Shown: positions 14,501-53,826 of the stretch, in pieces | Layout of the letters: the number at the start of each line of letters is the position of its first letter | Numbering within the stretch: the stretch's first letter is position 1 | IMG/VR virus record: IMGVR_UViG_3300047553_000334 | Coordinates: 1 to 64,000 of that record | Origin: a virus | Length of the DNA: 64,000 nucleotides | Direction: 5' to 3' (one strand) | Translations under genes and position numbers: made by a program | Notes under the pieces: model-generated | Database searches by the model: none | The model's input: only the letters and a program-made list of their open reading frames with translations | What the model was told of the DNA's origin: nothing

Positions 14501-17500
14501 CCTGATGCATACGAATTCTTTAGAGAAGCCATGGATATGGCAGAACCATTTAAGCGTCAGGTTGGTGACATTGTTACAATAGAATCAAAGTATCTGGACG
14601 GCACAACGGCATCTCGTCGTTATGTCATTGTTCAGGCAAATGCTGATCATGGAGTAGGTTTACCTATTGATAACTTAACTGGCACAGAGCCAAGTATGGT
14701 TATCTTTGATCACTCAGGGTTAAAGGTTGAGCGGACAAATACAGAGTTTCTTCTTAGGGAGATGCAGAACGCTCAACGCATTTCTGGATATGACCCAACA
14801 TCTGATCGTCCGACTGATGACCCACTTGGTAATATTTTTAAGTATGCGTTCTGGTTGTCAAATCGAAACACCGATACCACAGTTCCTGTAAAGTTAGTAC
14901 CAGCTATTGTTAACGCTACGGCTGAAGAGTTACCGTCTATACTTCACGGACATATTCTTAGTTCTTTAGATGACACTGGACTATTGCAGAATGTCGTTGG
15001 CAGTATGCGTGAATGGTTAGCTAAGAACCCTGATTCTGCTGGCGACTTTGAGTTTATTGTTAATCAAGCACTAGCTACAGAGTTGTCTAAGGGTTCTGCA
15101 GATGTAAGTGCATTGGCCCTTGGTCACCTAACAAATATTGCACGCAATGCTGACTTAAATGATTTAGTTGATCTTCTTATAGGTCGTTTTGACGATGAGA
15201 AAGAAGTTAGCGGAGAGACATTCTTTAGTTCTAGTCCACGTCGTATAGGTAGATCACAAGGTCAATTTCAGATTATGTTGTCTGCCGTAAACATGATCAA
15301 CTCATTTATCCGACGTAAAGGACGCATTACAGATGAGCGCCTGACAAAAATCATTACTAATTTCTTAGGGACTAACCCATCATTTGAGGGGAATCTTGAG
15401 AATGCAATTACCACAATTAAACGACTAGCCCAACTCTCCAGCTCTATCAATCATTTAGCGTATGGAGTTATTAGTGAGAAGGGCGCCATCTGGATGATGG
15501 AAAAATTATCTGCTCTCCCACATGAGGTACAGGTACTTTCTGCGTTACTACCATTTGATGGTGTTCGTGATATCTATCAAGATGATTTTGGTAATTGGTT
15601 TGCATCAAAAGAAAAATATGATGCTGCTGTACAACGCGCACGTGAATTATATGCGGATGCTGCTTCACGTGGTGAATCTGGTATAGACGACTTACGCAGT
15701 GCAATGTATGATGCACGTCTAGGATTTTTCTTTGAGATAGCTGCAGCAGGTTTAGAAGTAACAACACGACGGCCAATGGTCAACGTAACTGACCCAAGAG
15801 CAGTTGATGTAATACGAGCTAACGCCGAACGTGCAAGTAACGCTGTCAACGAGATGATTAAGCGTGTTGCTACTGCAAAGTTAGCGGTTCTCTCTAAGAG
15901 GTTGCAAGATAACGCTAGTGCGGATACGCCATCTGTACCAGTACGTCTTGATGAATTGGCAACTGCATCTCTACTTGCTGCTCCAGATGGTGTATTGCAT
16001 CCTGAACAGATTATTGATCAAAATGCAACAGAAGCTGCAGAAACAAGTCTTGTAACTATGCAGAGCGTAATAGATAATGTGCGCCAGCAAATGGACAATA
16101 TTGACGCAGCATCAGTGCTACCCGGCGTTGCTGTTTACACACCAGATGAGGCCACTACTGTAGGTACAACTGCATTGGCAACAGCAGCAAAAGCACACGA
16201 AGGCAAGTTAGTGCTTGATGCGTCTAAACAAGCGTTTGATGCACTACCTCCTCAAGTACGTGACATAGTGTCTTCTTTGGCATCACCATTACTTTGGTTC
16301 TCTGATGTAGTTCGTGCTATTGATCGAACAGGTGATGACAATCTACGTGAAGCATTAGTGTTTGCGTTGATGAATGCCCAAGGGACAGAAGGTGCATCTA
16401 GTCTATCTATTCGCCTGAATACATTATTTAGAACTGAAGAGGCATTCAACAGGTTTAATGATTTTGCTAGTGTGGTTTACGATAAAGTTAACAACACAGA
16501 TACTGGTCGCAAAACTGCAGTTCGCGGAGCAATGGATCAGTTACTTAAGCTAGTTGATTCAATGGTCGGGGAAGAAGGAACGTCATTAGTAGATGATGCA
16601 GTTGCTTATTATCAAGGCCAAAACTTAAATCCTATTCTCCTTAAAACATTTATTGAATTAGCGTCGAAAGAACTTATTCAATCTTTAATATCTAATGCTA
16701 CACGCGTTTCACCTGAAGCTGCATCTGATGTACTCGGAAGTATTAATACTTATGTAGAGAACAACAGAGAGCGTATACGCAGAGCTGGCGCATTTGTAGG
16801 TGATAGTGCAGCCAAGGCTGAAGCGTTACGGCTGATTGAATCTGGTTCAACAGATGGCTTACGTTATTTAGGATTCTCGTTTAACGGGCAACGACGTACG
16901 CTCATACAAGATGCAGTGCAGTCATTGGTCAACAATATGAGCACTCGCAAGTATGAAGGCAGTGCCATGGCACAAGCACAAGCATTGCTAAATGATGCAC
17001 GTGAATTAGCTAGAACAGTAGCAGATTTTGTTTTAGGTGATGAAGGATTAGCTGTTGGTCAAGATCCCGCATCTGCTTATACTCCCGCTGTAGAGGTACA
17101 GTCTAGTTCATTTATTGATGCGCTACGTGGCGGTATGACGTTTGCTCGTACTTCTACTGGTCCTGACACAGCACCATTGTTAATGGCTGGTAACAGGGCA
17201 GGACTTGAGAAGATCATCTTAGCAACATTGTTGGATGCAGCTAATAAAGCAGAACTAAATTACGAGTCTGTAGACAAAGCTTTAATGGAAGCTGTTGTTG
17301 GACCAGAGATTGCTAAAAAATATTTTGAACGATTAAAGCAGGAAGATTTTGTAAAACGCAAAATCATATTTAGCAGAGAACCTGTGATGCGTGCTGCAAT
17401 TATTCCGGGCGTTGACGGGCGTTACACATTACCTACTGGTATGGCTCGAAAAGAATTGATTGAGGGTCAGGCTATGTTTAATAGCTATGTGACCAAGATG

Positions 17501-20500
17501 TTGAATCTATTAAAGCCACGTGACGCACAGCGCTTTAAGGATGCGTTAGCAGAGTATGTAAACAAAAAGCGAGCAGAAAGCGGTGATCAAGTATTTGTAT
17601 TTGCTATGGCTGATTTACTTGCAATAGCAGAAGGTTTCAACGAAACTCGCGGTGTATTATTCCGCGCATCTGCTGATGCATCCGAGTTGTCATTTGGTGT
17701 AACTAATAAGGACGCTCATAATGCTGCATACAAAATAAAGTCGAGGCTGGCATCTATAGTTACAGATGTTGAACGTGGAGTTATACCAAATCGATATGAC
17801 TTGGCTGACCAGTTTGACAATCTTGGTGATGCAACTAGTTTCATTGATAAGTTTGAAGCAATAGATATTTACGAGCCGTTACCAGATGACATGGTAACAA
17901 TGAATGACGCTGAGGCACTTGGCACTTTGTATTCGCAAATGTCACGAGACAATGCTTATACAGATGACCAGAAGAAAAAGTTTGACACACTAGCAAAATC
18001 ATATCGTCGTGTTGCACGAAGTAAAGATGACTCACCAGCAAAGGTTATTAATAGATACTCTGATGCACGTGTCGTTTCTGCTAACTTAGCCAAGGTATAT
18101 GACACCTATGCTGCACGTATGGCAACTCAAAAAGTCAGCAATGACATGAAGTTTAACTATGACCTTGATGACTATAAGGCACTGACTGCTTTATTAGGAG
18201 TCAATGCTGAAGTTCAGTCAAAGGTTATGGCAGCTACAAGTGTCAATGAAATCTTTACAGAGGCTGTATTAGATAAGGATCAGCAACGTCAGTTAGTTGC
18301 ATTGCGAGCGGCTCAACTAAAGCAAGACTTCTATAACCAACATCACAAGTTATTCTTTGCACATGAAGCAATGATGAACGAGATGGGATATCAACGCGTT
18401 GCTGATTCCGCACGTGATGTTGACGGCTTTATTACTCGCACTAAGATTGCAAATGCAACATCATCAATCTTGTTTATGGCTGCGTCTAAGAACTTTGGTA
18501 AGAGTGCTTTGACTGTTGCCCATGAAATATCTCACCACTTATTCTTCTCTTTGCCTGATGCACAGCAAGTACGTTGGTTAAAGGCTGTGATTCCACCACT
18601 CAACCGTGACAAGTCTGAAAAGGTTGTGCCAGAAGAAGAGCTGGTTCATGGTTATTTAAACAAGCAAGTTGATTTACTCAACGGATATTCCACACTACAG
18701 GATGTTTATTTATTTAGACGGCAGACAGTTGAGCAGTTTGCTGGAAGTAAATACACTCCCGAACAAATTCATAACGCTAAGATGATTTTAGGAGAACTGT
18801 CTGCTACTAGCTTAATGAACTTTATTCTTAATAGTGGTGTTGTTCATATGCCTAATGACCGTGTGTCAATAGCAGAAGATTTAACTAGCTCACTTCTTAA
18901 CCTGCAGAAAGTCTTGGCTCCTATTGCTAAAACGTTGAGCAGTGAATTTGGTCCGTGGGCAATGGTTGGAGATAAACCAACTAACGTATTCTATTATTCT
19001 CCATCATCAGTTGTGTATGAATCACCTAAAAAAACTGGTGTTAATCGTGTCTTCTATCCTTTAAAACACGGTACGTACGTCCAGTTCATAAACAACATCG
19101 GTAAAAAGTTTAGTTCAGCAACACGTGTGGTTGATATTCACGACGTGATTATGGCTAACAAAGAATTTATTGATGGGCGATCAGACAAACGGCAGCGATT
19201 AGTTGATGCGTTATCTAACGTCATTACAGATAGAGATGCGGTCAATGAAATTGTTGATAAGTTAATTGCATTAAAGACTGAAAATCCACGCGCTGAATAC
19301 GGCAAGCATTACCGTATTAGTTTAAGTGGCGACAAGGCATTTCAGAAACAAGCAGACGGTACTACTGAGGAGCAAGGTTATCCTGTAGTTGGTCGCGTAG
19401 TTGGTATGGCTCACGAACGTGTGACTGCACGGTTTGATCGTGTTAGACCGTTTAAACTTAATGGTCGTGAGTGGTTTATTAGTAGTAAAAACAAAAATGA
19501 CAACTCGCAGTGGTATGGTTTAAATGCCTACGAAAAGGCTAACGGACCAACTAAATTATTACAGAGTGGTATGCGTGGTGATTATGGGTATGTCGTAGAA
19601 AGTACTGCACAGATACGCTTACATACCCTGTTTGAGGGTAAGGATATTGACCTTGGCGATAATAAGATGTCGCGAGTTGATGTACCTGTTAGGTTTATTG
19701 TTGGTCATGACTATATTGATACAAGCCAGAATTTCCATTTAGTCGGTTCTGGTGATGCTGGTAATCCAGCATTTATGTCAATCGTATACAACATGCTTGC
19801 CAAGATTGATCAGAATGTTATTCAAGCTGCTGGTCAACGCACGTATGAGTATGAGTTACGCATAAACAAAGCTTTGTCCGAGGCTATGCGAACAGGTGAC
19901 TATAGCAAATGGGACGAGACTGTCACTGCCCCTCTTGCGTTATCAATGGACAAAGATATTAAAAATATCATTGCTCGTACACCTGTTTCTGAGATTCAAG
20001 CTGTAAGGCAAACTGCAACACATGCATGGTTACGTAATCAAAGTCATTCACGCAGTCTTTACAGATGGGCACGTAACATTAAGGATGAGGGTACACGTTC
20101 TACTGTATTAGGCTTGATTGATAGGATTACGGAACAGCACGCATTTACTGTTGGTGAATCTTTATCTGACTCATCAATCACATCTGCGACCAAGCGATTA
20201 CAGAGTGTTCTTAAAGATGGCAAGGGTTGGTATTCATTCATTCCATTTAGTGCAGATAAGTTTGCAAAGAACGGAATGGCACCAATTGTAACTGCCGTAC
20301 ACGAACAGTTGTTTACTTCATACGATGACCTCATAAGGTTTTACAATGAGGTTAAAGAATCTCGTGCAGAACTATTTGCTAGTCGAGATCAAACATCACT
20401 TGTGCCATATCTTGCACAACCTACTGCATTAACAGTTGCTGGTGAAACTGCTTCTACTGCTGGACGATCGTTTGCTGTCGAAGTAGACGGCGTTAAGGTT

Positions 20501-23500
20501 GATTCAAGTTCATTGATTGAACAGATGTTTGGTTTACATGTTGATAACTTAGACGCCGCTTTCCAACAGTTTCAGATGCAATGGCTTGGTACACAGTTAA
20601 CTAAATGGATTACAGAAAACCAGTCCGTTGTAAGTGGTACGAACAGATCGTTTAGCCAACGTCTGGCTGAACTTTATCAAGGATTAATGACAGGTGATCC
20701 AGATGCATATACTAAATCTGGTTTATCTAAAGACTTTGTTATTGGTGGCAAGCAGATTGACTTAGATAGTGCATTGCGACTAGTTGCTCAAGCAGCTGGA
20801 ACACCAGAAAACTTTGAAAACGGATTGCGGTATTACGCAGGTCAGAGTGATATTGCAATACAGTTTAGTGCGGAAACAGGGCTTAAGGTTGTACCACACG
20901 CAGTGCTGGATCACATTGCCAATAAGATATTTACTAATCAAGATGACATGATTAGATTTATGACAGCTGTTGCTGGAGATACTAGTGACACTGTTTCTCA
21001 AAGTGATGTTATTCGTGCTCGCAATTTATTCAATACTGTTGAGCATATTGTCCGCACAGATGCAAAGATACGTAGTTCTGCATTACGCAACTGGAAAAGT
21101 TACGAGTTGGTGAAAAGTGATCCTAACTCATACGAGGTTATTATTCGTTCTCCTGACAGGGATATTGCTGCAGATGAAGTTGGAGCATCTAAGTCTGGTG
21201 CGCTGTATCGCGTCAATATGCAAACGGGTAAGACACATCTTGTTGCTGAGTCGAGACGTTATGATGCACAAACCAACAAGTGGGTTGAAACATACGAGAA
21301 CATTCAGGATATAGATGACTATCTCCGTTACAACTGGGTACGCAAACCAAATGAAACAGCAAGACGTGATCCATTTGCTTTTGATGCAAAACCACGAGCA
21401 ATCAAATTGGATGCTAAACAGTTGTTTGGATTTGACGATTTCCTGAAAGTCAATGACACGTTAATGGCATTAGCTGGTGAATACGGTGTGTCTCATGGCG
21501 TAGTTAATGATGAGCCAGTGTACTTTATGCTTCCTATATCTATTGCTGAATTAGCTGCCAGCGAGATAAACATCTTTGATCCTGATGTTCCTATTCGTAA
21601 TGCTGGAATGAATATTATTAAGGGCACTTACGATAAGAAAGAAAAACAATGGTCATTTGTAGATACGTCTAACAACTGGCAAGATGCAAATAATTATAGG
21701 TCTCAAATGCCTATGGGTTTATTAGAGATGGTTATTAGTCCATTTGATAAATCTAGTGCAATGACTCTTACGTATGATCGTCAACAAGAAATTGCCAAGC
21801 ACAAAATGCTGCAAGAGGAATATCACATTGCAAAGTTATTGCTTGCCAAGGATAGGAATGTAGATAATCCACAGCATTCAGAATTCACAAAGGTAGGCAA
21901 ACAAGCTTTGTTTAATAGTGAGTCTGATTTAATGCAGGATGCGAGTACTGGTACATGGTTCTCAAGTAGTCCTAAGTTTATGGATGAAACTCCAGACAAC
22001 ATACCTGAATTACGCAAGCCATCTGCATTACATGTTAACGATACTGAAGATCCTATTATTCAGTCAAGTATGGGTGTCCTTGATGATTTGGCTGCTGATG
22101 CAAAAGAAAAAGCATTCCAAGTTCCACAGGAAGTTACGTTCTACCGTGACCCTAAGACAAAGGGTGGAATGCTTCAATCTGGAACTAAAGACAAACTAGT
22201 ACTACAGGTTAGTAGCGACATATATGACAAGTTGGTTACTGATCCATTAAAGGGTAGCCAGTGGGAAACCACAGTAAAAGATGGTCAGGCTATTACTTTA
22301 GATGGTGCTGATGCTGATGTATATTTTGCATCTACTCCTAAGTTTGTTGACACTGCGTACAATGTTTATGCATACGGATTAAAACCTCTACAAGATTTTT
22401 TCCGTGGTGTACTTGGATTAGACCTTTCTGCATTTGCTATTCAGTTAGGCTCAATGATGGTGCGAGCACCGTATCAAACGTTTAAGGCGTTAGTATTATC
22501 TGTCCCTGAGTTATTTGCTGGTAGCAGTGCGGACATTGGACTTGTGCTAGGTTCTCTGTGGCACGGGGCTAGACAACAGCGCAGATTAAAAGGTGAGGGC
22601 CAATGGTTCAACCAGTCTTTAAACCTTGATGCTCGTTACTATGATTTCATCATGAACTCAGTGGTAGATAGATTTAATCAGACTAACATTGGTACTACAG
22701 TATCTATGTCTGAATTAATTGATGATTATTACATGCAGTCTAGTTACTCTGACTGGTATAAGCGATCAAAAGCTAACATGATTGCAGACCCTACTAAATA
22801 CAAATCCATCATAGACACTCCTTGGGAAAGTCAGCGAGAGAACGTGTTTAGTGGTGGAATCATGGGTACTGTTGTACCCGGTTGGCGTAGAGCTGAAATG
22901 ACAAGGCAGTTAATTTTGGATTTAGCTATGCTTCAACAATCATTGTCTGCAGTAAAAGATGCGCGAGCTAATCAAGCTAAAAATAAGGATCGCGATATCT
23001 CTGATAGTGAAGTTGATAAGGATATTAAAGCAGCACTTACCAACCTCGGTAAGGAGATTGGTATTGGGTCTCATGCACGTAGTAAAACTCAGGCTCCTAT
23101 ATGGAGAGCGTTGTCAAATGTTGTGCAATATTTTATGACTGCACCTTCTTATACACGTAACTTTAATCAGTTTGTTGGCTTTACTCCTTTTGTAGGTACA
23201 AAAGAAAAGATTAACGAGTGGTCTAAAATTGCAACGCAAAATGGTCCAGCTTGGTTACGTGGTGAGGTATTTGATATTGAAAGTGACCTCAGGCATCAAA
23301 ACTTTGAGACTGCTTGGGCTGAAAAAAGAAGGATCAAATATAGAAATCAAGCTGCAATAACATGGGGAATTATTGCAGCATTAAATGCATGGGTTAATTT
23401 TCAACAGCATCAAAAGAATCGTCCATATGAAGAGGAAGATAAAACTTCATGGATGGACATCATGAGCAAGCGCTTTGGTTACGTTGAAGTAAACGATAAC

Positions 23501-24334
23501 TGGGCTGTCCAAGTACCTGTGCTTGGTAGGTTTGCTGGATTAGTCAAGCCAATAGCAGAAGCTGCATCTGTGGAAAACTATGGTCCGCTTGAAAAAATTG
23601 AAGCTGGATTTAATGGGCTTACAAAACAGCTTATTAAAAACAAGATTCACAATGGTGGACAGTTTATTATGAGTGCGTTTAGTGGGAAGACTTTTAAAGG
23701 ATTACCTGCAGGCGAACAAGACGCAGGTCTTAAGGTTGCTGTTGAAAATGATGTGCGAGCACCATTCTATTTCCATCCAACTGGATACTTGTTTCCACAA
23801 CAAAGTAAGTTGGCAATGGATACTATGACGCTTGCTCATCAAAGGGCGTATTATGATGACCTTTTGAAATTAGCTATCTATTCTGAAATGGCTAAGAAGG
23901 GTTTGAATGAACAGCAGATTATGCGTGAAGGTGGCGTATTACCATCTGTTCGTGTAAGTCGTCAAGCAGCAAATGAACTGTGGTGGAAAGGTACTGTTCC
24001 ACGTTTGCTTGGATTTAACGTAATGTATGAACCTTACGGATACAAGTACATAAACAAATTCCCAACGCAGTTTGGACAGAGTAGTACGACTCTTGGACGT
24101 ATCGCATACATGAGTAAGGATTGGTATAACTATCCAAATTTATTTGAGACTATGCGTGATCATCCTCGTCAATTGATTAGTGGTTGGCCAATACAGGATG
24201 TAAGTGGGCCATCTTTAGGATTCCCATCAAGTGAATCTCAAGCACGTTCCACACCACGCGAACGCATCAGGTTACCATTGAACAACGTTACACGAGCTTT
24301 GATTCAGTACAATAGCGACAATAGAGGCAAATAA
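11570..24334 (+). CDS. Giant 4254-aa virion protein with HExxH metalloprotease motif
   Basis: One uninterrupted 12.8-kb gene. Visible features in order: a helical N-terminus; Gly/Ala-rich hydrophobic stretches at about residues 295-365; an FFSSSP motif near 1217; long helical regions; a zinc-peptidase motif AHEISHHLFF at about residues 2317-2326 (H2318, E2319, H2322); two more FSSSP/FASTP-type motifs near 3462 and 3583, which look like domain junctions; a hydrophobic segment near 3605-3670; and a C-terminal helical region. The gene ends in TAATG overlap with the lysin. The layout resembles the large polyvalent proteins injected with phage DNA (named in work by Iyer, Aravind and colleagues). 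The protease motif is seen; ejection into the host is inferred. Confidence 0.8.
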   Translation: MPQTNSSRNRSVSDAYWKKRYQQAGVVPKAGGGVTVTKPTQRLGYEAPQDKQSWIQQNYIPITNLIQKGDTRVVSSQVLDIARSGFNSGYINQKQYDYIADNVERFRKALTTPVTSGGEQIPFTTLGQTGARGNFGEVQRSLKHSDLIRYNPDGSWEYDPRDANAAIRANVGRTQGLIKDANTNIFPDVGATAAGLLATVPLRVAKSFGYQPTFDENTFTGRVGRAAEGIEAGLSSFVPTVMSGISNRTRYAMSRAYGRTPEEAEQDAANLMMETPWYQVANAELAPAQTSPNFQLGSVLGMEAAAAVPSLYTSLGLLNAASSLGARVLSPFGSQASSIGRYAGIGAAVAAPPTITAFRDQLTGGQPGVREDIVSGVESFMDPVRTAQQRGTTESQMLGQQEFDPKGVYNTAAQRLGLFTMASGGAREMWRDVKNEAARGMFAFRGRLKETGNPFVAAKTGLAASVETEIGKAAAADLGFALTQPLGDIGRLVYSQTRFDKSKPVDVPKAEDLVIDTLLGLSASRPGKGAQWIFRGNPLERLEPKTMAIAAAVDTVNKQSPEINLLRQRIAELRGPDFKPNEADLRRVASELARTNSANLESLSRMDEIPEGIAIHRTPEEHIRAYVENPDSISVDVRSRYDNLIESMRGAKDKIDIEDGNPLNNLDILDNYRTDLATRRRRINELTKALLPEYEAMFKSMKSNKPVERTPAKYYGLKRGDGTMLVFTSDFESARIVPEHDSPDIQMLGPNYYGESSSRELTAERTAFHRSVVALRETPITLDGVEGVPIAFTGNSIYLKDSLGNVRAYTADKLLDAQRKAKSEGKNELVQQIQDVIDVVNESNKLYREGKISTFQSDGRVSVLTRDRAVRDSRFQVPLIDSPDDSRGRLIDRQNGYGIVQSDTGMYYIVPEIDLRGSDGEIYPVENELDDIHITDLDTENNRITVFLPNVDTGESFPLTLQLTPDQVQAFKNDGVPPDAYEFFREAMDMAEPFKRQVGDIVTIESKYLDGTTASRRYVIVQANADHGVGLPIDNLTGTEPSMVIFDHSGLKVERTNTEFLLREMQNAQRISGYDPTSDRPTDDPLGNIFKYAFWLSNRNTDTTVPVKLVPAIVNATAEELPSILHGHILSSLDDTGLLQNVVGSMREWLAKNPDSAGDFEFIVNQALATELSKGSADVSALALGHLTNIARNADLNDLVDLLIGRFDDEKEVSGETFFSSSPRRIGRSQGQFQIMLSAVNMINSFIRRKGRITDERLTKIITNFLGTNPSFEGNLENAITTIKRLAQLSSSINHLAYGVISEKGAIWMMEKLSALPHEVQVLSALLPFDGVRDIYQDDFGNWFASKEKYDAAVQRARELYADAASRGESGIDDLRSAMYDARLGFFFEIAAAGLEVTTRRPMVNVTDPRAVDVIRANAERASNAVNEMIKRVATAKLAVLSKRLQDNASADTPSVPVRLDELATASLLAAPDGVLHPEQIIDQNATEAAETSLVTMQSVIDNVRQQMDNIDAASVLPGVAVYTPDEATTVGTTALATAAKAHEGKLVLDASKQAFDALPPQVRDIVSSLASPLLWFSDVVRAIDRTGDDNLREALVFALMNAQGTEGASSLSIRLNTLFRTEEAFNRFNDFASVVYDKVNNTDTGRKTAVRGAMDQLLKLVDSMVGEEGTSLVDDAVAYYQGQNLNPILLKTFIELASKELIQSLISNATRVSPEAASDVLGSINTYVENNRERIRRAGAFVGDSAAKAEALRLIESGSTDGLRYLGFSFNGQRRTLIQDAVQSLVNNMSTRKYEGSAMAQAQALLNDARELARTVADFVLGDEGLAVGQDPASAYTPAVEVQSSSFIDALRGGMTFARTSTGPDTAPLLMAGNRAGLEKIILATLLDAANKAELNYESVDKALMEAVVGPEIAKKYFERLKQEDFVKRKIIFSREPVMRAAIIPGVDGRYTLPTGMARKELIEGQAMFNSYVTKMLNLLKPRDAQRFKDALAEYVNKKRAESGDQVFVFAMADLLAIAEGFNETRGVLFRASADASELSFGVTNKDAHNAAYKIKSRLASIVTDVERGVIPNRYDLADQFDNLGDATSFIDKFEAIDIYEPLPDDMVTMNDAEALGTLYSQMSRDNAYTDDQKKKFDTLAKSYRRVARSKDDSPAKVINRYSDARVVSANLAKVYDTYAARMATQKVSNDMKFNYDLDDYKALTALLGVNAEVQSKVMAATSVNEIFTEAVLDKDQQRQLVALRAAQLKQDFYNQHHKLFFAHEAMMNEMGYQRVADSARDVDGFITRTKIANATSSILFMAASKNFGKSALTVAHEISHHLFFSLPDAQQVRWLKAVIPPLNRDKSEKVVPEEELVHGYLNKQVDLLNGYSTLQDVYLFRRQTVEQFAGSKYTPEQIHNAKMILGELSATSLMNFILNSGVVHMPNDRVSIAEDLTSSLLNLQKVLAPIAKTLSSEFGPWAMVGDKPTNVFYYSPSSVVYESPKKTGVNRVFYPLKHGTYVQFINNIGKKFSSATRVVDIHDVIMANKEFIDGRSDKRQRLVDALSNVITDRDAVNEIVDKLIALKTENPRAEYGKHYRISLSGDKAFQKQADGTTEEQGYPVVGRVVGMAHERVTARFDRVRPFKLNGREWFISSKNKNDNSQWYGLNAYEKANGPTKLLQSGMRGDYGYVVESTAQIRLHTLFEGKDIDLGDNKMSRVDVPVRFIVGHDYIDTSQNFHLVGSGDAGNPAFMSIVYNMLAKIDQNVIQAAGQRTYEYELRINKALSEAMRTGDYSKWDETVTAPLALSMDKDIKNIIARTPVSEIQAVRQTATHAWLRNQSHSRSLYRWARNIKDEGTRSTVLGLIDRITEQHAFTVGESLSDSSITSATKRLQSVLKDGKGWYSFIPFSADKFAKNGMAPIVTAVHEQLFTSYDDLIRFYNEVKESRAELFASRDQTSLVPYLAQPTALTVAGETASTAGRSFAVEVDGVKVDSSSLIEQMFGLHVDNLDAAFQQFQMQWLGTQLTKWITENQSVVSGTNRSFSQRLAELYQGLMTGDPDAYTKSGLSKDFVIGGKQIDLDSALRLVAQAAGTPENFENGLRYYAGQSDIAIQFSAETGLKVVPHAVLDHIANKIFTNQDDMIRFMTAVAGDTSDTVSQSDVIRARNLFNTVEHIVRTDAKIRSSALRNWKSYELVKSDPNSYEVIIRSPDRDIAADEVGASKSGALYRVNMQTGKTHLVAESRRYDAQTNKWVETYENIQDIDDYLRYNWVRKPNETARRDPFAFDAKPRAIKLDAKQLFGFDDFLKVNDTLMALAGEYGVSHGVVNDEPVYFMLPISIAELAASEINIFDPDVPIRNAGMNIIKGTYDKKEKQWSFVDTSNNWQDANNYRSQMPMGLLEMVISPFDKSSAMTLTYDRQQEIAKHKMLQEEYHIAKLLLAKDRNVDNPQHSEFTKVGKQALFNSESDLMQDASTGTWFSSSPKFMDETPDNIPELRKPSALHVNDTEDPIIQSSMGVLDDLAADAKEKAFQVPQEVTFYRDPKTKGGMLQSGTKDKLVLQVSSDIYDKLVTDPLKGSQWETTVKDGQAITLDGADADVYFASTPKFVDTAYNVYAYGLKPLQDFFRGVLGLDLSAFAIQLGSMMVRAPYQTFKALVLSVPELFAGSSADIGLVLGSLWHGARQQRRLKGEGQWFNQSLNLDARYYDFIMNSVVDRFNQTNIGTTVSMSELIDDYYMQSSYSDWYKRSKANMIADPTKYKSIIDTPWESQRENVFSGGIMGTVVPGWRRAEMTRQLILDLAMLQQSLSAVKDARANQAKNKDRDISDSEVDKDIKAALTNLGKEIGIGSHARSKTQAPIWRALSNVVQYFMTAPSYTRNFNQFVGFTPFVGTKEKINEWSKIATQNGPAWLRGEVFDIESDLRHQNFETAWAEKRRIKYRNQAAITWGIIAALNAWVNFQQHQKNRPYEEEDKTSWMDIMSKRFGYVEVNDNWAVQVPVLGRFAGLVKPIAEAASVENYGPLEKIEAGFNGLTKQLIKNKIHNGGQFIMSAFSGKTFKGLPAGEQDAGLKVAVENDVRAPFYFHPTGYLFPQQSKLAMDTMTLAHQRAYYDDLLKLAIYSEMAKKGLNEQQIMREGGVLPSVRVSRQAANELWWKGTVPRLLGFNVMYEPYGYKYINKFPTQFGQSSTTLGRIAYMSKDWYNYPNLFETMRDHPRQLISGWPIQDVSGPSLGFPSSESQARSTPRERIRLPLNNVTRALIQYNSDNRGK

Positions 24335-36057: not shown

Positions 36058-36321
36058 TTAAATACCTCTTAGTGTTCTTGCTTCTGCGCTTGTAACAACT
36101 CGTACAATTGAGTCGATTACATCTTGTGGGCAGTCTCCTTCTTCAAGGACTGCCATGACAGCTTCCATAGCTGCCTCAAGGATTTCTTCCTGTGTATAGT
36201 CTTCCTCTGGGTCAAAGTAATCCCAAAGGCTCACGTCTGGTAAGTCATTGGTTGTTAATCCAATGTGGTCAATCATAAGCTGATCGACGACAGCGCGGAA
36301 TGTTTGAAGAGTGTATTTCAT
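36058..36321 (-). CDS. Hypothetical acidic protein with pseudoknot leader
   Basis: An 87-aa very acidic helical protein (DYFDPEEDYTQEEILEAAMEA). The leader holds the pseudoknot at 36343-36371 and then AAAGGAC, 6 nt before the ATG. No family recognised. The charge could suit DNA mimicry, as in other phage inhibitors. Confidence 0.6.
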   Translation of the reverse strand: MKYTLQTFRAVVDQLMIDHIGLTTNDLPDVSLWDYFDPEEDYTQEEILEAAMEAVMAVLEEGDCPQDVIDSIVRVVTSAEARTLRGI

Positions 36322-36342: not shown

Positions 36343-36371
36343 GTGCGTTGTTGGTGAGACGCACCCCTCAC
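36343..36371 (-). promoter_or_regulatory. H-type RNA pseudoknot, copy A (5' UTR)
   Basis: Minus-strand RNA order: GUGAG (S1), GG, GUGCGU (S2), CUCAC (S1), CAACA, ACGCAC (S2). S1 is 5 bp, S2 is 6 bp, loop 1 is 2 nt and loop 3 is 5 nt, which is sterically ideal for an H-type fold. It ends about 14 nt before the ribosome site of the 36321 gene. Copies B and C keep the fold with covarying pairs. Confidence 0.8.
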
Positions 36372-36378
36372 ATTGTCA

Positions 36379-36864
36379 CTAGGCGAGTTCGACTAGGTCG
36401 CTGTTGTCACGTGCAGTCGATGCCACACACTTATCGAACTGTGGCATTGAAGTAGCGACGTACTTCCAGAAGTCGAACGGAACCGCAGGAAGCTCAATGT
36501 CTTTGATGATTACATTGAACGCCTTGATAGCCTCCTGAATTTGGTCATCAAGTGTCTCAGATGTAGTCTTGACAGTGAACGTACGCAGCTTTCTACTGGA
36601 TGGATCAGTGCGTTGGTTCTCGTCTTCGTACATATTCAGTGATACATCGATCTTGGCTACGACTCGGTCAAGCAATGCCAAGTCTCGTGTTGCCACATCA
36701 ATACGGAGATGAAAATTGAGGGCAACGCGATGACCATTGATGTTGAACTCTTTGTCATGGTGTGTTGTCTCATAATAATCGTATGTATTGCCGATGCCTC
36801 CGCTAATACGGCGAATGTCATCAGAGAGACGAGAGACGAAATAGTCAAACGTAGGTGTAGACAT
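36379..36864 (-). CDS. Hypothetical protein with pseudoknot leader
   Basis: A 161-aa protein of mixed alpha/beta character with an extended middle region. It is preceded by pseudoknot copy B and an AAAGAGA-type ribosome site. It shows no recognised family, metal site or membrane segment. Confidence 0.6.
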   Translation of the reverse strand: MSTPTFDYFVSRLSDDIRRISGGIGNTYDYYETTHHDKEFNINGHRVALNFHLRIDVATRDLALLDRVVAKIDVSLNMYEDENQRTDPSSRKLRTFTVKTTSETLDDQIQEAIKAFNVIIKDIELPAVPFDFWKYVATSMPQFDKCVASTARDNSDLVELA

Positions 36865-36884: not shown

Positions 36885-36913
36885 ATGCGTTGTTAGTGAG
36901 ACGCATCCCTCAC
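36885..36913 (-). promoter_or_regulatory. H-type RNA pseudoknot, copy B (5' UTR)
   Basis: Minus-strand order: GUGAG, GG, AUGCGU, CUCAC, UAACA, ACGCAU. Compared with copy A, one S2 pair changes from G-C to A-U on both sides, so pairing is preserved. Loop lengths are identical. It lies between the stop at 36922 and the 36864 gene. Confidence 0.8.
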
Positions 36914-36921
36914 ATAAAACA

Positions 36922-37176
36922 TTAGATAGCGATGTAGCAGTTTTTGATTTCTTTGATGCCAGCTTCTTTGATGATGTGATTACGTACATCAGCAACTTGC
37001 GATTCGTCTAGATATTGAATAGCCTCGCCAAGCCAAAGCAAGACATAGTTGTTCTCATTACGTAGGTCATCAAAAACTTTTGTCAATCTGTCGTATTGAC
37101 CTTGCGTTATTAGATTGTTATTAAATAGTGACTCAATAAGTATCTCGCCACTAATAACTTCAAACGGCATTTTCAT
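36922..37176 (-). CDS. Hypothetical protein
   Basis: An 84-aa protein, helical, with ILIESLFNNNLITQGQY suggesting a small helix-turn-helix-like or docking fold. ATGA overlap with the upstream gene. No family recognised. Confidence 0.55.
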   Translation of the reverse strand: MKMPFEVISGEILIESLFNNNLITQGQYDRLTKVFDDLRNENNYVLLWLGEAIQYLDESQVADVRNHIIKEAGIKEIKNCYIAI

Positions 37177-38243: not shown

Positions 38244-38348
38244 CAATAATAACGTTCTAATTATTATTGTTCAATGTAATGAGGGGTACAATTTTTATAC
38301 CCCTCTAGGGTACAAAATTTGAGGGGGCTAAATTTTATACCCCCTCAA
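38244..38348 (-). terminator. Cluster of three perfect hairpins; terminator region
   Basis: Three inverted repeats fill the only large gap of this operon part: 9 bp at 38244-38269 (CAATAATAA), 8 bp at 38281-38305 (GAGGGGTA) and 9 bp at 38319-38348 (TTGAGGGGG). The last two share a TATAAAA-type loop and look duplicated. In the minus direction the third is followed by ATTTTG. They would end transcription after the 38352 gene or slow it before the membrane gene. Confidence 0.6.
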
Positions 38349-39662: not shown

Positions 39663-39992
39663 CTAGTAGTAATTGACACCGACTTCGTCGCGGATGTCGT
39701 TCCATGCCTCAATAGTCATGACTTTGTAACCAACGAGGCTTGCACCGCACTGATCCATTTGCTCTGGAGTCAGCTCCTTGCCTCGCAGTTCCAATGGCAG
39801 GTTAGGTAAATCCACCGACCACACCTCACGGGCATGGCAGGCGAGGTGCATCGGGATGACACCGATGACCTTGCGTCCTCGCATCAGGTCAGGTGTTGCG
39901 TGGGCAACGACTGTTACATCCGGGCTAACGTGCCCGTGCAGTACTAGCCATTGCACCAAGCCAATATGTCGAGAGATAACTATTGTTTCCAT
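39663..39992 (-). CDS. Csx16-like (VVA1548 family) protein, candidate ring nuclease
   Basis: A 109-aa protein, close to the Csx16 family length. I chose the ATG at 39992 over the long upstream extension, which would run through a pseudoknot. Visible family landmarks are IVISRHIGLVQW (4-15), KVIGVIPMHLA (about 41-51) and LPLELRGKELTPEQM (about 65-79), in the same order as Csx16/VVA1548 proteins. Csx16 is a type III CRISPR-linked family proposed to degrade cyclic oligoadenylate messengers. In a phage such a protein would blunt type III immunity, as DUF1874/AcrIII-1 does. The leader holds a hammerhead and a pseudoknot. Family assignment is by pattern; the activity is inference. Confidence 0.75.
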   Translation of the reverse strand: METIVISRHIGLVQWLVLHGHVSPDVTVVAHATPDLMRGRKVIGVIPMHLACHAREVWSVDLPNLPLELRGKELTPEQMDQCGASLVGYKVMTIEAWNDIRDEVGVNYY

Positions 39993-40020: not shown

Positions 40021-40052
40021 ATGCGTTGTTCACCGAGTCGCACCCCTCGGTG
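40021..40052 (-). promoter_or_regulatory. H-type RNA pseudoknot, copy C (5' UTR of Csx16-like gene)
   Basis: Minus-strand order: CACCGAG, GG, GUGCGA, CUCGGUG, AACA, ACGCAU. S1 grows to 7 bp with a new sequence, while the GG loop, the AACA loop and the S2 pairing (4 Watson-Crick plus G-U) are kept. It ends about 15 nt before the AAGGAAAC ribosome site of the Csx16-like gene. Confidence 0.78.
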
Positions 40053-40125
40053 AGTGAGATATGGCCACGTTGGCACCACTCACTCGGTCAATGCGGTTAC
40101 GCCTCTTCGTAACCTGTGATATCTG

Positions 40126-40182
40126 ACGTGTTTCGGCGTGACTGCCTCATCAGCCTATAGGAATCACCCTATAGGTACACGT
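40126..40182 (-). ncRNA. Hammerhead ribozyme, type III (HHR-a)
   Basis: Minus-strand order: ACGUG (stem III, 40182-40178), UA, an 8-bp stem I CCUAUAGG / CCUAUAGG with loop GUGAUU, CUGAUGA (40153-40147), a 3-bp stem II GGC / GCC with loop AGUCAC, GAAA (40134-40131), CACGU (stem III). Every invariant core base is present. Cleavage is after the A at 40176. Loops I and II are complementary (GUGA/UCAC), fitting the known loop-loop contact. It lies in the leader of the Csx16-like gene. Confidence 0.9.
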
Positions 40183-40214
40183 TGGGGTGGCACGTGAGCA
40201 CCACCCCGTACTAC

Positions 40215-47445: not shown

Positions 47446-50400
47446 ATGGCATCGTTACTGTCTAGTTTAATCATGGGGCAACCCGGTCAAGCAACGGATA
47501 AAGATAAAGTTAATCAAGGTGCGCAACCACCAGTGCCTCCAACTCCTCCAGCTGGTGGTGCGCCAGGATTACCGTCTATTCCACCTGTTGCACAGCAGCA
47601 ACCAACTGGACAGCAACCGCCATCAAATCAGCCATCCGGAGGACCAGTATTTCCTGCTCCTCCGGGTTTTAATCCAATTCAATTTGACCCTATTGCAAGT
47701 ATGTCAAAGGTTTTTGGAAACCTTCCACAAGCCACAGGAGGTGCACCGGGATCTGTACTTGGACAAACAAAGGCTGAAACAGTAACAAAGATTGATCCTA
47801 ATACATGGGATATGGCAGCCATTCAGCCAAAGGCTGCGCGACTAGATTGGTATTTACGTTCGCAGAAATCTGGATCACTTACTAGTGGTGCTGATTTATT
47901 AAAAGGTATGCAGTCGTTTCTGCAAAGTGAGGCATCTGGTAAATCACAGACAGCAGGTACAACTCGTGCAGATATAACTGGTGATGATCCATTTTTAAAG
48001 ACAGTTAGTTATGCTACGTCGTTGTACAACAATGGCGGAACCGTTGAGCGTAAGATGGCTGATGCTTATGCTAATGGATTGATGTACATGACATCTGCAT
48101 TAGCACGTAATGATCAGCAAGGTGTTGATGCAGCTAAGTTTTATTTAAGTGACTTAAGCGATTACACAGTAGAAGATTTCCGAAGTCCTAAAACACAAAC
48201 GTATTTTGCCAAGCAAGCTGCGTCAGTAGTAAAACCGTACGTATTAAATAAATCATCCGACGAACTTACTAAGATGTCGGAAGAAGTTAAACCGGAAGCT
48301 GTACGGAAAAAATTACTAGGTAACGTTTTATACGACTACGTACAAAGTCGTTTCACGGATTTACGAACCGAAGCACAATCGGGAAGTCCAACTGCAAATG
48401 CTGCTCGTAAAACATTAAATACATTTACTAAGATGTATGGTGACTTGGCACGTCCAGCAATCGAAGGGCAGCGTGACAAACAAGTTGAAATGTTTATGGA
48501 GTCACCGCAAGGTCGTGCTCTTATTGACGATGCCTACGATCAATTCGATGGCCAAGGCTTATTTAATACACAAAAAGCAAAAGACCTTGTTACACGCATG
48601 GGTCAGAAAATTAAGTCAACTCAAGGTACTGGTTCTTTTGATCCAGCTAATGACGTTACTCCACAAGAATTAAAAGATTTCTTTGGTCAAACAAAAATGA
48701 AGCGCTATATATCTAGCGCAATTGACATTGATCCAAATATTAGTGATGAGGCATTACGTCGGTTTGAATTAGACCCGTCAAATGTAGATGACGATGAAAT
48801 GTATGGTGCACTGACACCATCCGGTGTTGCTGCACTTTATGGCAAGAAGGACGACTCTCTTGTTGGAGACGTAGGTCGTGCTGGGCGTCCAGACCCATAT
48901 ATGTATGATCTATCGTCTAACTTCTCGGCTAATCAAACACAAGCACCATCTACATTGTCTGGTGGTAATACAGGGCGTATTAGGTCACGTGCTGAGCTTG
49001 CAGGTGCAATGGCATCTGGATTAGGTTTAAGTGAAGCACAGTTAGAGCAAGCAGCCCGTAAGTTATTCTCTAATACAGACGATATTTCTGAGTTTGTAAA
49101 TGCGGGTATGAATGATTACGACATTGAGTCGGATATTCTGCCAAAGGTACAGACCGACATTAAGTCGTCCCGCATTTCGCAAACAGGTGGCATAAAAACA
49201 GCTGGTACATCCACGGGTACATATAACTTACTTACTGATACGTTTAAAGCCGTAGATGAAGTCATGCCGGGTGGACCACAGCAATCATCATGGTTAAACA
49301 AAAAACGCGCCCTTAACGATATTGCTGTGCAGGCTCGTAATCTTGAAGGCACTGCTGTATCTGCTGCTGGTTCTAGGTTTGCTAAGACTGCTACCGGTGA
49401 ACCAGATTACTTTAATCCAATATTGCCTGACCGTGGTGATCAGGTAGGACGCATACAAATCCTGCAAGATATTTTTAAACATGCAAGTGAGAATTCCAAG
49501 TACCGAACTGATTTACAAAATCTTATTCGCAGTGCAATAGATGGCAGGCCATACACAGGCGACATTAAGATGACTCCATCGCAGTTGTCTTCCGTTGTTA
49601 GTATTTATGCAAAGCACCTAGAAGAAGCTGCGTCAGCAAATCCAACAGCAGCTGGAAGCCCAAACCAGTTATTTAATTCCATGTTTGGCATCCTGCCATC
49701 CGACTATAACAAACGCGATTTGCGCATGAAGATTTTGAAGTCATTGCAATCAGCAAGTCCTTCTAAGTTTAAAACAATGTCGAGCACAATGGAAGTTGAA
49801 CCCAGTGGAAACACTAGGTTAATACCAGTTGCTAATGCTGGACAGGTTATGGAAAATGCGTCTAGCATTCCGGGAGACACTGGAGCAAAAGGTGGACGTA
49901 GTAGTAAAACTGAGAATGCTGCACTAAACAGAGTTGAACGTAGTCAGCAAATTTTAGGCGATATTTTTAAAACTGCTAAAGATTCTATTCTTTCGTATAC
50001 CAATGATATTGGTTTAGGTGAATCAATTGGTGCAACAACTGCTCCATCAAAATTTAAGGATGGCGTAGTCGCAGCGTTTGATAAAGCTATTGGTGATTCT
50101 TTAGCTAAGTACAAAATTGACCCAAATGATAAACCAAAGTTTGACCGCATGGTCGAAAAAATTAAAGAGCAGTTAGTTGATCAGGCATCTACTGAATGGA
50201 TGAAGGGTACTGTAACTGGTCAAGAAGTCGACAATATATTTAAACAATTTGGACAAGTCCAAAGATCCATTGGCGCAACGGGTATGTCTGATGCTGCAGC
50301 ACCAGCAGTAGGACGAAATGTGCCTACTAGAGATGATGCTAATGCAGCTAAAGTAACTGAGGGTCGTAAGATTTATGCTGATGCAGTTGCAGCTCTAGGT

Positions 50401-53400
50401 GGTAATTTACCAGCCAAACAGGAGAGTGTAGATGCACTAGAGGCTAAAGTTCAAGGTGTTATTGATCAGGCAACGAAGCGTGGCAAACCTGATTACGCAG
50501 ACTTTGTTCGTAACTGGCAAACACACTCTAACACAATGTTAGTAGAAGCCAAGCGTGATACTGACAGATATGCAGAGAAGATTAAAAACGCACAACAAGA
50601 CATTGCAACATTAACTAAAGAGTCTAATGCTGAAGGCACCACACCTGCCCGAAAAGCAGAAATACAAAAGCAAATTACACGCCTTACGACTGGTATTAAC
50701 GCAGATGCAAAAAAGGGAAGTCAAGCATTACGCAAATTACAAATGCGTGTGGCGACGTATGGAAAAATCCCAACTCCAGAAGACTATGCTGCTTTACTTG
50801 AAAAGGGTGACGAGCAAACACAGCAGAAGAATCAAGTAGATCTTGAATTCAGGCGCGTACGTGCAAAAGTAAGGGCAGGTGGATTTAAGTCACTAACTGC
50901 AAATGAAAAAGCTTTCTGGCTTGATGAGGGCGTAAAACGTTACGACATCGGTGAGGAAAACTCCATCGGCATCGGACGTAGTACACGTCTAGGATTTAAT
51001 AGTTTCCTTGCTAGTATTGCTGGTACTAACTGGACTATTGTTAATCCTGAGTACGAATTGTTTGATGACAATGAACGTGCACCTAAATATTTAACTGAAA
51101 TTCTTGACCCAAAAACCAATCAGATTATTGGCCACAAATTAAATGACAATGTCAAATTTGCATTCCAGTGGAAAAAAGATGAAAAAACAGGGATGTTTAC
51201 GGATGTAAGCGTCGTTGCTACAGAGTTTGTAAAGCAAGGTAACAATGCAAATAAACCTTTGCGTAAACAGATAATAGAAACTGGCGTCGAACGAGCGATT
51301 GTAAGAGCACGTAACTTTTACGTTGCGTTAGAAGATGACCTAAAAAATATTGATGCACGTGTAAAAGGTGAAACATTTGGTTTACTTAAAACTGACACGC
51401 GTGTAAATAGAAATGCATCCAAATTATCTGGCGTCATTCGTGACATTATGGAATTGGAAGGGCGCGGTTCACTAAATAAAGCAAATCAAACAAATATTGG
51501 AGAGTTAAAGAAAGAAGCCATAAAAGGTTTAACAGCAGCTGGTTATGACCAACCACAAACGTTTCTTAATGAGCTTCTTGCTAAAGATAAAGCTGCAAGA
51601 CAGGTTTTAAATTTCTCAGACACATTACGTACTCGAATGGCAGATCGTATTAATACGTTTGCTGGTAAGACTGTGCGTACGCCACAAGAAATACAAGATG
51701 ACATATCTAGTTATTTTGGCACACAGGAAGCGTCATCTGAAGAATTTAAAAAAATAGAGGATCAGACACGGCTAGAGAAAATTGACTTACTTGATAAGTT
51801 AGGTATTGATGTACGTAGATCCAAAGACAGAGCAGGCAATGTAACAGATGTATCTGTCCCAACGAATGCTGTAGGACTTGCGTTAGATAAGATTGACACA
51901 AAAGGCAAGGTGCGTTTTACAACAACAAAAGAAAACGTTGCCAGTTTACGACAATCAGTAATTGCGAAATTACGACCACTACAAGAACGACTACAAAAAG
52001 AAGTTGATGGTGGTGCATTAGTTGGTCGCGATAGATTACAGAAAATTGCAGAGGCAAAGAAGCTTTCAAAGTTAGCAGGAGATATTAATACTGCTACATC
52101 AGAAGGTGAGTTATCTGGAGTTGTACTGGCATTTACATCTAATGATCCAGCTGTTAAGGCAGCGCAAGATGTAGCAAGAGGGTGGTCAACTAGATCGGAT
52201 AAGCTACCATCAGAAATGTATGCTGCTTATAAACGGTTAGCAGATAAGCAATTAGATGGATCTATCTCTGAGGCAGATGGCAATAAGCTAAAAGCAATTA
52301 GTATTCAATTAAACAAACATCTGCGTGATGTAGCTCCTGAACTCGGTAATAACCCATTGGATAAGTTATATAACTTAGACAACATGGAAACACAGATTGC
52401 ACAAGGATATTTAGATCAAACAACAAAGTCAGACAAGAATCCTTTTAAAGTAATTTTTGGTGAGGCTGCATATAAGATTGCGCGTGTGGATTTGCCACGC
52501 GGTAGATCATCTGAAGGTGACGCAGAATTCATCAAGAAGTGGACGAGTAAATGGAAGCGCAAGGACAAAGATCGTCTAGAAAGAGAAATGGATATTGCTA
52601 AGACATTAGGTCTTAGTGTTAACAAATTAGAACTTGGAGACGTTTGGCGACAGCTTGAAAAGAGATTTAATAGTATGTCTCCAAAACAATGGCTAGAGTA
52701 CACATATGGATTACCTGAAGATGCACGTAATCTTGTGTTGCGAGAATATCCATTGCAGTCGCAATCATTGATGCCAAATCAATTAGGTGAGGGCGACGGA
52801 TTATCACGTCGTGAAATTAACAGACGTCTTCTTACTGTAACGCCGGATGGACATGTTGTTCCTGCAGCTAAAGAAACAAAAACAGCTCCGCAGGTGGTTA
52901 AAGAAAACCGGATGCCATTTAGTGAGAAGTATGATGACGCACTTATGTGGAAGATACGTAACAATGCAGTTGAATACACTGACATTCTGCATGATTCACT
53001 TAAATCCTATAAGTATGAAGTAAAAGGCCCAGACGGTAAAACTGTAAAGGTAAATGGTGATGCATCATTTACCGTAGAAAAAACTATAACCCAAAATGGT
53101 AAACAAGTTACAGTTAAGGAACTCAAACCCGGATATACCGTACTTGGTGCTACTGAGTCAGTTACAAATACACTTACTGGGGAACGTACAACTCGTGAAG
53201 TTCCAACACAATCTGACTATATGGTCAATGGTAAAAAGATAACTGTTCCGTTGTTTAACCGACAAGCACTTTTGCTGTCTACTAGACTTCCTGCGTCGAT
53301 AGATGTAGACATAGTTGATAAGAAGTTAGTTAAAGTTGAGCCAGTATTTAAACCAAGGGCACTGCCATCAACAACTGTTGAACCAGAAGGTAGATTAGGT

Positions 53401-53826
53401 TTTAGGTATGAAGGAAAAGACTACTGGATTGGCAGACGTGATTACAAAGCATTTGTAGATAAAATCAATAGTGGCGAAATTGATAAGAAGAATATACGTC
53501 AATTAGTTACGGAACTTGTAACACGTGTGCGAATGAATCCAGAGTTTCCGGGTGAAGTGCAGAAGTACACAAAGATTAGCGCAAGTGTTCGCGGAGCTGA
53601 TGCTAAGAAAGAAGAAGAAGGTGTCAAGATACCCGCAGATGTACAACAAAGGCTTATTGCAGATTCTGAAAACAAGGGTCTTGGTGGAATTGTCACAAAT
53701 AAGGGTGCACGTCACAGTGTTAGTTTCTTAGGTGCATTAATGCTTGCATTTAAAACATATGGCAAAAAATTTATTAGTAGTTATGTTGAGGCTGAACGTA
53801 AAGCTGCAGAAGGAGACAAAAAATGA
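47446..53826 (+). CDS. Giant 2126-aa helical virion-type protein
   Basis: A 6.4-kb gene. The N-terminal 120 residues are Pro/Gln/Gly-rich and disordered (PPVPPTPPAGG). The rest is mostly helical, with charged, coiled-coil-like stretches and an acidic/basic C-terminus. I see no walker, protease, lysin or polymerase motif. The gene overlaps its 210-aa companion by 4 nt. By size and order it may be a second injected or internal protein, or a scaffold. Unassigned. Confidence 0.65.
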   Translation: MASLLSSLIMGQPGQATDKDKVNQGAQPPVPPTPPAGGAPGLPSIPPVAQQQPTGQQPPSNQPSGGPVFPAPPGFNPIQFDPIASMSKVFGNLPQATGGAPGSVLGQTKAETVTKIDPNTWDMAAIQPKAARLDWYLRSQKSGSLTSGADLLKGMQSFLQSEASGKSQTAGTTRADITGDDPFLKTVSYATSLYNNGGTVERKMADAYANGLMYMTSALARNDQQGVDAAKFYLSDLSDYTVEDFRSPKTQTYFAKQAASVVKPYVLNKSSDELTKMSEEVKPEAVRKKLLGNVLYDYVQSRFTDLRTEAQSGSPTANAARKTLNTFTKMYGDLARPAIEGQRDKQVEMFMESPQGRALIDDAYDQFDGQGLFNTQKAKDLVTRMGQKIKSTQGTGSFDPANDVTPQELKDFFGQTKMKRYISSAIDIDPNISDEALRRFELDPSNVDDDEMYGALTPSGVAALYGKKDDSLVGDVGRAGRPDPYMYDLSSNFSANQTQAPSTLSGGNTGRIRSRAELAGAMASGLGLSEAQLEQAARKLFSNTDDISEFVNAGMNDYDIESDILPKVQTDIKSSRISQTGGIKTAGTSTGTYNLLTDTFKAVDEVMPGGPQQSSWLNKKRALNDIAVQARNLEGTAVSAAGSRFAKTATGEPDYFNPILPDRGDQVGRIQILQDIFKHASENSKYRTDLQNLIRSAIDGRPYTGDIKMTPSQLSSVVSIYAKHLEEAASANPTAAGSPNQLFNSMFGILPSDYNKRDLRMKILKSLQSASPSKFKTMSSTMEVEPSGNTRLIPVANAGQVMENASSIPGDTGAKGGRSSKTENAALNRVERSQQILGDIFKTAKDSILSYTNDIGLGESIGATTAPSKFKDGVVAAFDKAIGDSLAKYKIDPNDKPKFDRMVEKIKEQLVDQASTEWMKGTVTGQEVDNIFKQFGQVQRSIGATGMSDAAAPAVGRNVPTRDDANAAKVTEGRKIYADAVAALGGNLPAKQESVDALEAKVQGVIDQATKRGKPDYADFVRNWQTHSNTMLVEAKRDTDRYAEKIKNAQQDIATLTKESNAEGTTPARKAEIQKQITRLTTGINADAKKGSQALRKLQMRVATYGKIPTPEDYAALLEKGDEQTQQKNQVDLEFRRVRAKVRAGGFKSLTANEKAFWLDEGVKRYDIGEENSIGIGRSTRLGFNSFLASIAGTNWTIVNPEYELFDDNERAPKYLTEILDPKTNQIIGHKLNDNVKFAFQWKKDEKTGMFTDVSVVATEFVKQGNNANKPLRKQIIETGVERAIVRARNFYVALEDDLKNIDARVKGETFGLLKTDTRVNRNASKLSGVIRDIMELEGRGSLNKANQTNIGELKKEAIKGLTAAGYDQPQTFLNELLAKDKAARQVLNFSDTLRTRMADRINTFAGKTVRTPQEIQDDISSYFGTQEASSEEFKKIEDQTRLEKIDLLDKLGIDVRRSKDRAGNVTDVSVPTNAVGLALDKIDTKGKVRFTTTKENVASLRQSVIAKLRPLQERLQKEVDGGALVGRDRLQKIAEAKKLSKLAGDINTATSEGELSGVVLAFTSNDPAVKAAQDVARGWSTRSDKLPSEMYAAYKRLADKQLDGSISEADGNKLKAISIQLNKHLRDVAPELGNNPLDKLYNLDNMETQIAQGYLDQTTKSDKNPFKVIFGEAAYKIARVDLPRGRSSEGDAEFIKKWTSKWKRKDKDRLEREMDIAKTLGLSVNKLELGDVWRQLEKRFNSMSPKQWLEYTYGLPEDARNLVLREYPLQSQSLMPNQLGEGDGLSRREINRRLLTVTPDGHVVPAAKETKTAPQVVKENRMPFSEKYDDALMWKIRNNAVEYTDILHDSLKSYKYEVKGPDGKTVKVNGDASFTVEKTITQNGKQVTVKELKPGYTVLGATESVTNTLTGERTTREVPTQSDYMVNGKKITVPLFNRQALLLSTRLPASIDVDIVDKKLVKVEPVFKPRALPSTTVEPEGRLGFRYEGKDYWIGRRDYKAFVDKINSGEIDKKNIRQLVTELVTRVRMNPEFPGEVQKYTKISASVRGADAKKEEEGVKIPADVQQRLIADSENKGLGGIVTNKGARHSVSFLGALMLAFKTYGKKFISSYVEAERKAAEGDKK

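Follow-up and report, generated by a model that had tools for sequence, protein, structure and literature searches.

H-type pseudoknots are already known in phage mRNA. Polerovirus-type frameshift pseudoknots combine a short first stem (S1) with a 2-nt first loop and an A-rich second loop, and they lie 5-9 nt from the decoding site. In the T4 gene 32 leader, an unstructured stretch separates a pseudoknot from the start codon (PMC3014915). STAXI RNAs are pseudoknots in tandem arrays of two or, usually, three repeats, in which UUCG tetraloops are frequent (PMC2864571), and theta (HDV-like) phage ribozymes are self-cleaving nested double pseudoknots (PMC10879173).

The element described here is a phage RNA of 24-32 nt that occurs one to three times per genome as solitary units hundreds of bases apart. 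It resembles the polerovirus type in its spacing, its short S1, a first loop of 2 nt, and an A-rich second loop, but it has a longer second stem (S2) and neither a slippery site nor a frame relation. Like STAXI, it is a pseudoknot RNA found near SSB and recombination genes, but it is a single H-type unit with no tetraloop, and a cmscan of the element did not report STAXI. Like the theta ribozymes, it is a small phage RNA able to adjoin tRNA genes; unlike them, it is a simple two-helix pseudoknot that lies mostly between protein genes.

The window analyzed here is a 64,000-nucleotide stretch of a 65,874-base virus record, which contains exactly three copies of the element. Copy 2 (36885..36913, minus strand), assigned from its sequence, a family alignment, and pair counts, reads GTGAG GG ATGCG T CTCAC TAACAA CGCAT from 36913 to 36885. 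Its S1 (GUGAG/CUCAC) pairs 36913-36909 with 36900-36896 and its S2 (AUGCG/CGCAU) pairs 36906-36902 with 36889-36885, leaving a GG loop (36908-36907), a linker U (36901), and the loop UAACAA (36895-36890). Copy 1 (36343..36371, minus strand), assigned on the same kinds of evidence, reads GTGAG GG GTGCG T CTCAC CAACAA CGCAC from 36371 to 36343. It has the same S1 (36371-36367/36358-36354; GUGAG/CUCAC) and an S2 of GUGCG/CGCAC (36364-36360/36347-36343) whose first pair is G-C. Both copies are predicted to form H-type pseudoknots.

The initial annotation placed a pseudoknot at 36885-36913, which is right for the minus strand, on which the flanking genes are also coded. It also reported equal S1 and loop lengths in the two copies and a change from G-C to A-U on both sides of S2. 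The paired change is present. Two minus-strand sites in the window, and no plus-strand site, have the exact geometry (5-bp S1, 2 nt, 5-bp S2, 1 nt, 6-nt loop), whereas shuffled sequence is expected to give 0.15. S2 had been drawn as a 6-bp helix and is instead 5 bp long, as 9 of 26 distinct rows of the family alignment lack the sixth U-A pair. Output from a loose pseudoknot scan of the window was too noisy, and folding z-scores gave no information on the element because the folding program cannot make pseudoknots.

Both copies sit in short gaps between minus-strand genes. Upstream of copy 2, the gene at 36922..37176 (84 aa, no PHROG with known function) has a stop codon that ends 8 nt before S1. 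The gene between the two copies (36379..36864, 161 aa, no family match) starts 20 nt past copy 2, and its stop codon lies 7 nt ahead of S1 of copy 1. The gene downstream of copy 1 (36058..36321, minus strand, 87 aa, no assigned function) starts 21 nt past the element. Copy 3 (40021..40052, minus strand) is diverged, with a 7-bp S1 (CACCGAG/CUCGGUG) and an S2 of GUGCG/CGCAU that includes one G.U, and it lies within a long non-coding stretch ahead of the gene at 39663..39992 (minus strand). This gene encodes 109 aa from the ATG at 39992, 28 nt past the element; its listed GTG start at 40079 would read through copy 3. Immediately before copy 3 on the minus strand, 40053-40214 is a non-coding stretch of about 160 nt with four hairpin-like inverted repeats.

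Relatives of the window locus sought through a flanking protein and through flanking DNA were not found, and the portal of the window phage is only about 25% like those of Microbacterium and Arthrobacter phages. The window also contains two intergenic direct repeats at 38280-38343 (83% identical, 40 nt apart, TGAGGGG...TTTTATACCCC), a 4254-aa ORF at 11570-24334, and a 2126-aa ORF at 47446-53826 with no PHROG match.

Pattern scans of IMG/VR yielded, after deduplication, at least 405 distinct copies of the element on at least 371 phage contigs. The pattern GAGGGRTGCGNCTCN{3,12}ACGCAY and two other forms, one altered at S2 pair 2 and one in which S1 pair 3 is swapped, each matched at least 120 stretches, and a fourth form matched 68. 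Control patterns that break one pair matched only 15 and 8 stretches, the former still permitting a T.G wobble. Across about 257 billion bases of prokaryote genomes, the commonest form matched 7 times, which is about chance by our estimate, and two or three of these look like phage contigs. Scanning the first element-bearing loci for variant stems returned random matches only; CAG/CUG and CGG/CCG stem forms were revealed later by BLAST. The sole match to a CTGCG/CGCAG BLAST query was coding, in M. abscessus prophages, and was judged to be chance.

Named carriers include the Corynebacterium phages BFK20, phi674, and PSonyx, the mycobacteriophages LilMcDreamy, EastView9101, Arbiter, and BigNuz, and the Escherichia phages phi92, phAPEC8, and ESCO13 with about 130 related records. 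The carriers include phages that can be propagated on standard laboratory strains. Four records labelled as Campylobacter phages (MG065639, MG065645, MG065650, and MG065656) match the E. coli phage element, and their host labels may be wrong. One phage so labelled, B15, shares 74 identical bases with phAPEC8. In the phi92/phAPEC8 group, the element is the last part of about 75 conserved nt that adjoin a tRNA array, and it may form the end of a small RNA of that length. In two relatives (L131 2445-2525 and L132 2445-2527), about 50 nt before the element are also conserved at the end of the tRNA array.

Both helices vary in ways that preserve pairing. Of about nine pairs, six show covariation, some of them at positions that the searches left free. 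In the window-family alignment, changes on both sides occur at three pairs (the outermost two of S1 and the outermost of S2), and sliding the partners never matches this three-pair result. Among the matches listed, S1 pair 4, which the first patterns left unconstrained, pairs in 199 of 236 copies compared with 100 ± 6 after shuffling, and C-G, U-A, A-U, and G-C are all common there. S1 pair 3 is G-C or C-G, a swap seen in actinophages by BLAST. S1 pair 2 can be A-U or G-C; the G-C form was first seen in mycobacteriophages and PSonyx through BLAST rather than through a pattern. S2 pair 2, fully free in the scan with S1 pair 3 swapped, forms a standard pair in 95 of 95 matches listed (70.5 ± 2.4 shuffled).

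S2 pair 1 occurs as G-C, A-U, C-G, and U-A. When it was left free as R against Y (n = 119), it was G-C in 102 matches, G.U in 9, A-U in 8, and A.C in none; nine G.U without A.C fits the mRNA-sense strand. At the sixth S2 position, a wider set has A, T, G, or C with A as the partner, and the base before ACGC, when left free, is A in 118 of 119. The innermost G-C of S1, the GG loop, GCG/CGC of S2, and the AA before CGC appear fixed, although GG, GCG, and the second A were built into every search pattern, which may account in part for their strictness. Mimicry of 16S rRNA by sequence was dropped as an explanation because S2 changes freely.

The initial annotation took the paired S2 change as direct evidence that the tertiary pairing matters. 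One double change between two copies in one genome is weak evidence by itself; the comparative data, in which both S1 and S2 covary, make it strong. As judged from these alignments, both helices are under selection, and the statement that the tertiary pairing matters holds at the level of sequence only.

Among the matches listed, a same-strand ORF stops 4-16 nt upstream of 239 of 328 copies; the corresponding figures are 23 for the opposite strand and 22 for random positions. The element therefore lies in the RNA sense. The distance from the stop codon to the GAG core has, among these matches, a sharp minimum of 6 nt and is mostly 6-10 nt, and it rises slightly with S1 length. This sharp lower limit suggests that the fold is positioned where a terminating ribosome need not open it. 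The next start codon commonly lies 14-38 nt downstream of the element in the matches listed, and the leaders between them are G-poor (9.7% G compared with 20% in controls, same matches) and A- and C-rich, not always A+U-rich. Some copies are followed by a terminator; in phAPEC8, the next gene is separated from the element by a terminator and by a sequence that, judged by eye, is promoter-like. Others are followed by a tRNA or tRNA-like gene that starts about 3-6 nt later in nearly all such cases. A tRNA within 150 nt downstream was found for 5 of 236 elements and 17 of 7013 open-frame ends among the matches listed.

A tRNA-like RNA directly follows the element at L011 (2290-2365), L022 (3822-3898), L085, L108, and L349. 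It has an acceptor helix, a long hairpin, and a normal T arm but no D stem, and ARAGORN did not call it in the four loci scanned. The hairpin carries a pyrimidine-rich loop with CUCC, and in two cases CUCCUUUC, like the 3' tail of 16S rRNA. It is possibly an anti-Shine-Dalgarno tRNA-like RNA.

Neighboring genes are unrelated on both sides. Among the matches listed, upstream genes fall into 144 clusters in 258 and downstream genes, mostly without assigned function, into 124 clusters in 244. Longest-ORF gene calls were too noisy for judging convergent or divergent contexts. Overall, the comparisons make the fold, strand, and placement of the element nearly certain and show a position just outside the terminating ribosome that is independent of neighbor identity. 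On this evidence, the element is a compact H-type pseudoknot, conserved in untranslated gaps of phage transcripts and acting in cis.

The best explanation overall is that the pseudoknot is a boundary element, to which we assign a probability of roughly one in three. Its basis is anatomy alone: among the readings weighed, it best fits the spacing to the stop codon and to the tRNA. Just downstream of the pseudoknot, the transcript would be cut by RNase P where a tRNA comes next or by another endonuclease in the G-poor leader where a gene does, or it would end at a terminator. Given that such tRNAs begin some 3-6 nt beyond the element, RNase P cleavage would place the pseudoknot at the extreme 3' terminus of the upstream RNA. 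There, the conserved GG loop and the AA near the S1 minor groove may let it block 3'-to-5' exonucleases, so that the upstream RNA survives through its blocked 3' end. This protection of 3' ends is proposed tentatively, as a somewhat doubtful mechanism. One to three copies per genome are few for a general stabilizer, and the core sequence is conserved beyond what a mere roadblock should need. The element is also kept with its downstream gene while the upstream gene differs more often than the reverse (257 vs. 130 pairs among the matches listed), and there is no clear protein gene directly upstream in phi92-type phages or at window copy 3.

A rival reading is a translational operator, in which a phage or host RNA-binding protein would nucleate on the pseudoknot, spread along the unstructured leader over the start region, and repress the downstream gene. 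This fits the leader and the frequent movement of element, leader, and downstream gene together. The order of pseudoknot, G-poor leader, and start codon is that of the T4 gene 32 leader (PMC3014915), and the T4, T2, and RB69 operators are likewise phage H-type pseudoknots in intergenic leaders. Scattered neighbors are replication or recombination proteins (SSB, DUF669, ERF, Sak4, and DUF932). Unlike the gene 32 operator, though, the element has a fixed core common to hundreds of unrelated phages with unrelated neighbors, and, instead of encoding one SSB that binds the element, its downstream genes fall into 124 clusters among the matches listed. ERF was absent from ten element-bearing phages tested, which rules it out as a universal partner. 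Since a tRNA or terminator rather than a gene follows some copies, and a terminator and promoter-like sequence intervene in phAPEC8, an operator is unlikely.

Indifference to neighbors, together with the sense-strand position, the untranslated gap, and the low copy number, would suit a put-like antiterminator, in which the pseudoknot, as it emerges, would bind RNA polymerase in cis (or block Rho) and let transcription continue past downstream terminators. RNA polymerase is conserved and common to the hosts, and the enrichment near untranslated tRNA genes points the same way. Against this, close downstream intrinsic terminators are not enriched (6 of 225 elements vs. 90 of 2508 among the matches listed, distant ones lying outside the comparison), and where one operon has several copies spaced by a few hundred bases, as in the window, L160, and L253, they would be redundant. 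We regard this reading as decidedly doubtful.

It is improbable that the element is released from the transcript to act in trans, as a small RNA or as a decoy directed, for instance, at a host nuclease or toxin. The element is phage-restricted and present in few copies, and its position at the end of the 75-nt conserved stretch beside the phi92/phAPEC8 tRNA array would fit a freed RNA. Type III toxin-antitoxin RNAs (ToxI and kin) are also short pseudoknot units, and phages are reported to carry mimics of them (PMC3475682). Here, in contrast, the units are solitary with no tandem array noted, the core is conserved across phages of very different hosts, and no ToxN, CptN, or TenpN toxin gene appears among the families listed for immediate neighbors.

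A riboswitch, with the downstream RNA controlled by a common metabolite that binds in a pocket made of the GG loop, GCG/CGC, and AA, has a slim chance. Conserved unpaired bases within a small pseudoknot are also a feature of preQ1-type riboswitches, but the downstream genes share no consistent pathway, a tRNA or terminator follows some copies, and the commonest form shows no excess in prokaryote genomes. Stimulation of frameshifting or stop-codon readthrough, suggested by a start 5-9 nt after the stop codon and an A-rich loop comparable to those of viral recoding pseudoknots, is very improbable and was rejected, as no slippery sequence precedes the stop (0.23 bits or less per position), gap frames are roughly mixed (61, 39, 38), and the gap is no more open than when shuffled.

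Rfam 15 covariance models gave no meaningful match over the element up to E values of 5-10, such small pseudoknots being hard for these models. The open-access literature, to which the search was confined (subscription papers were outside its scope), contains no paper describing the element, and a full-text search for the core sequence returned unrelated matches only. There is a substantial chance that its mechanism is new. It is plausible, at somewhat less than even odds, that the element represents an undescribed class of RNA that is very widespread in phages and ranks with the smallest conserved natural pseudoknots. It would control phage transcripts at gene junctions, by a mechanism without named precedent, through a machine that distant bacteria share, such as the ribosome, RNA polymerase, RNase P, or an exonuclease. 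A strongly covarying RNA of this size is common to phages of E. coli, mycobacteria, and corynebacteria and to many environmental phages, and its conservation across phages this diverse suggests that they have a host target in common. The element could reveal a general step in phage gene expression.
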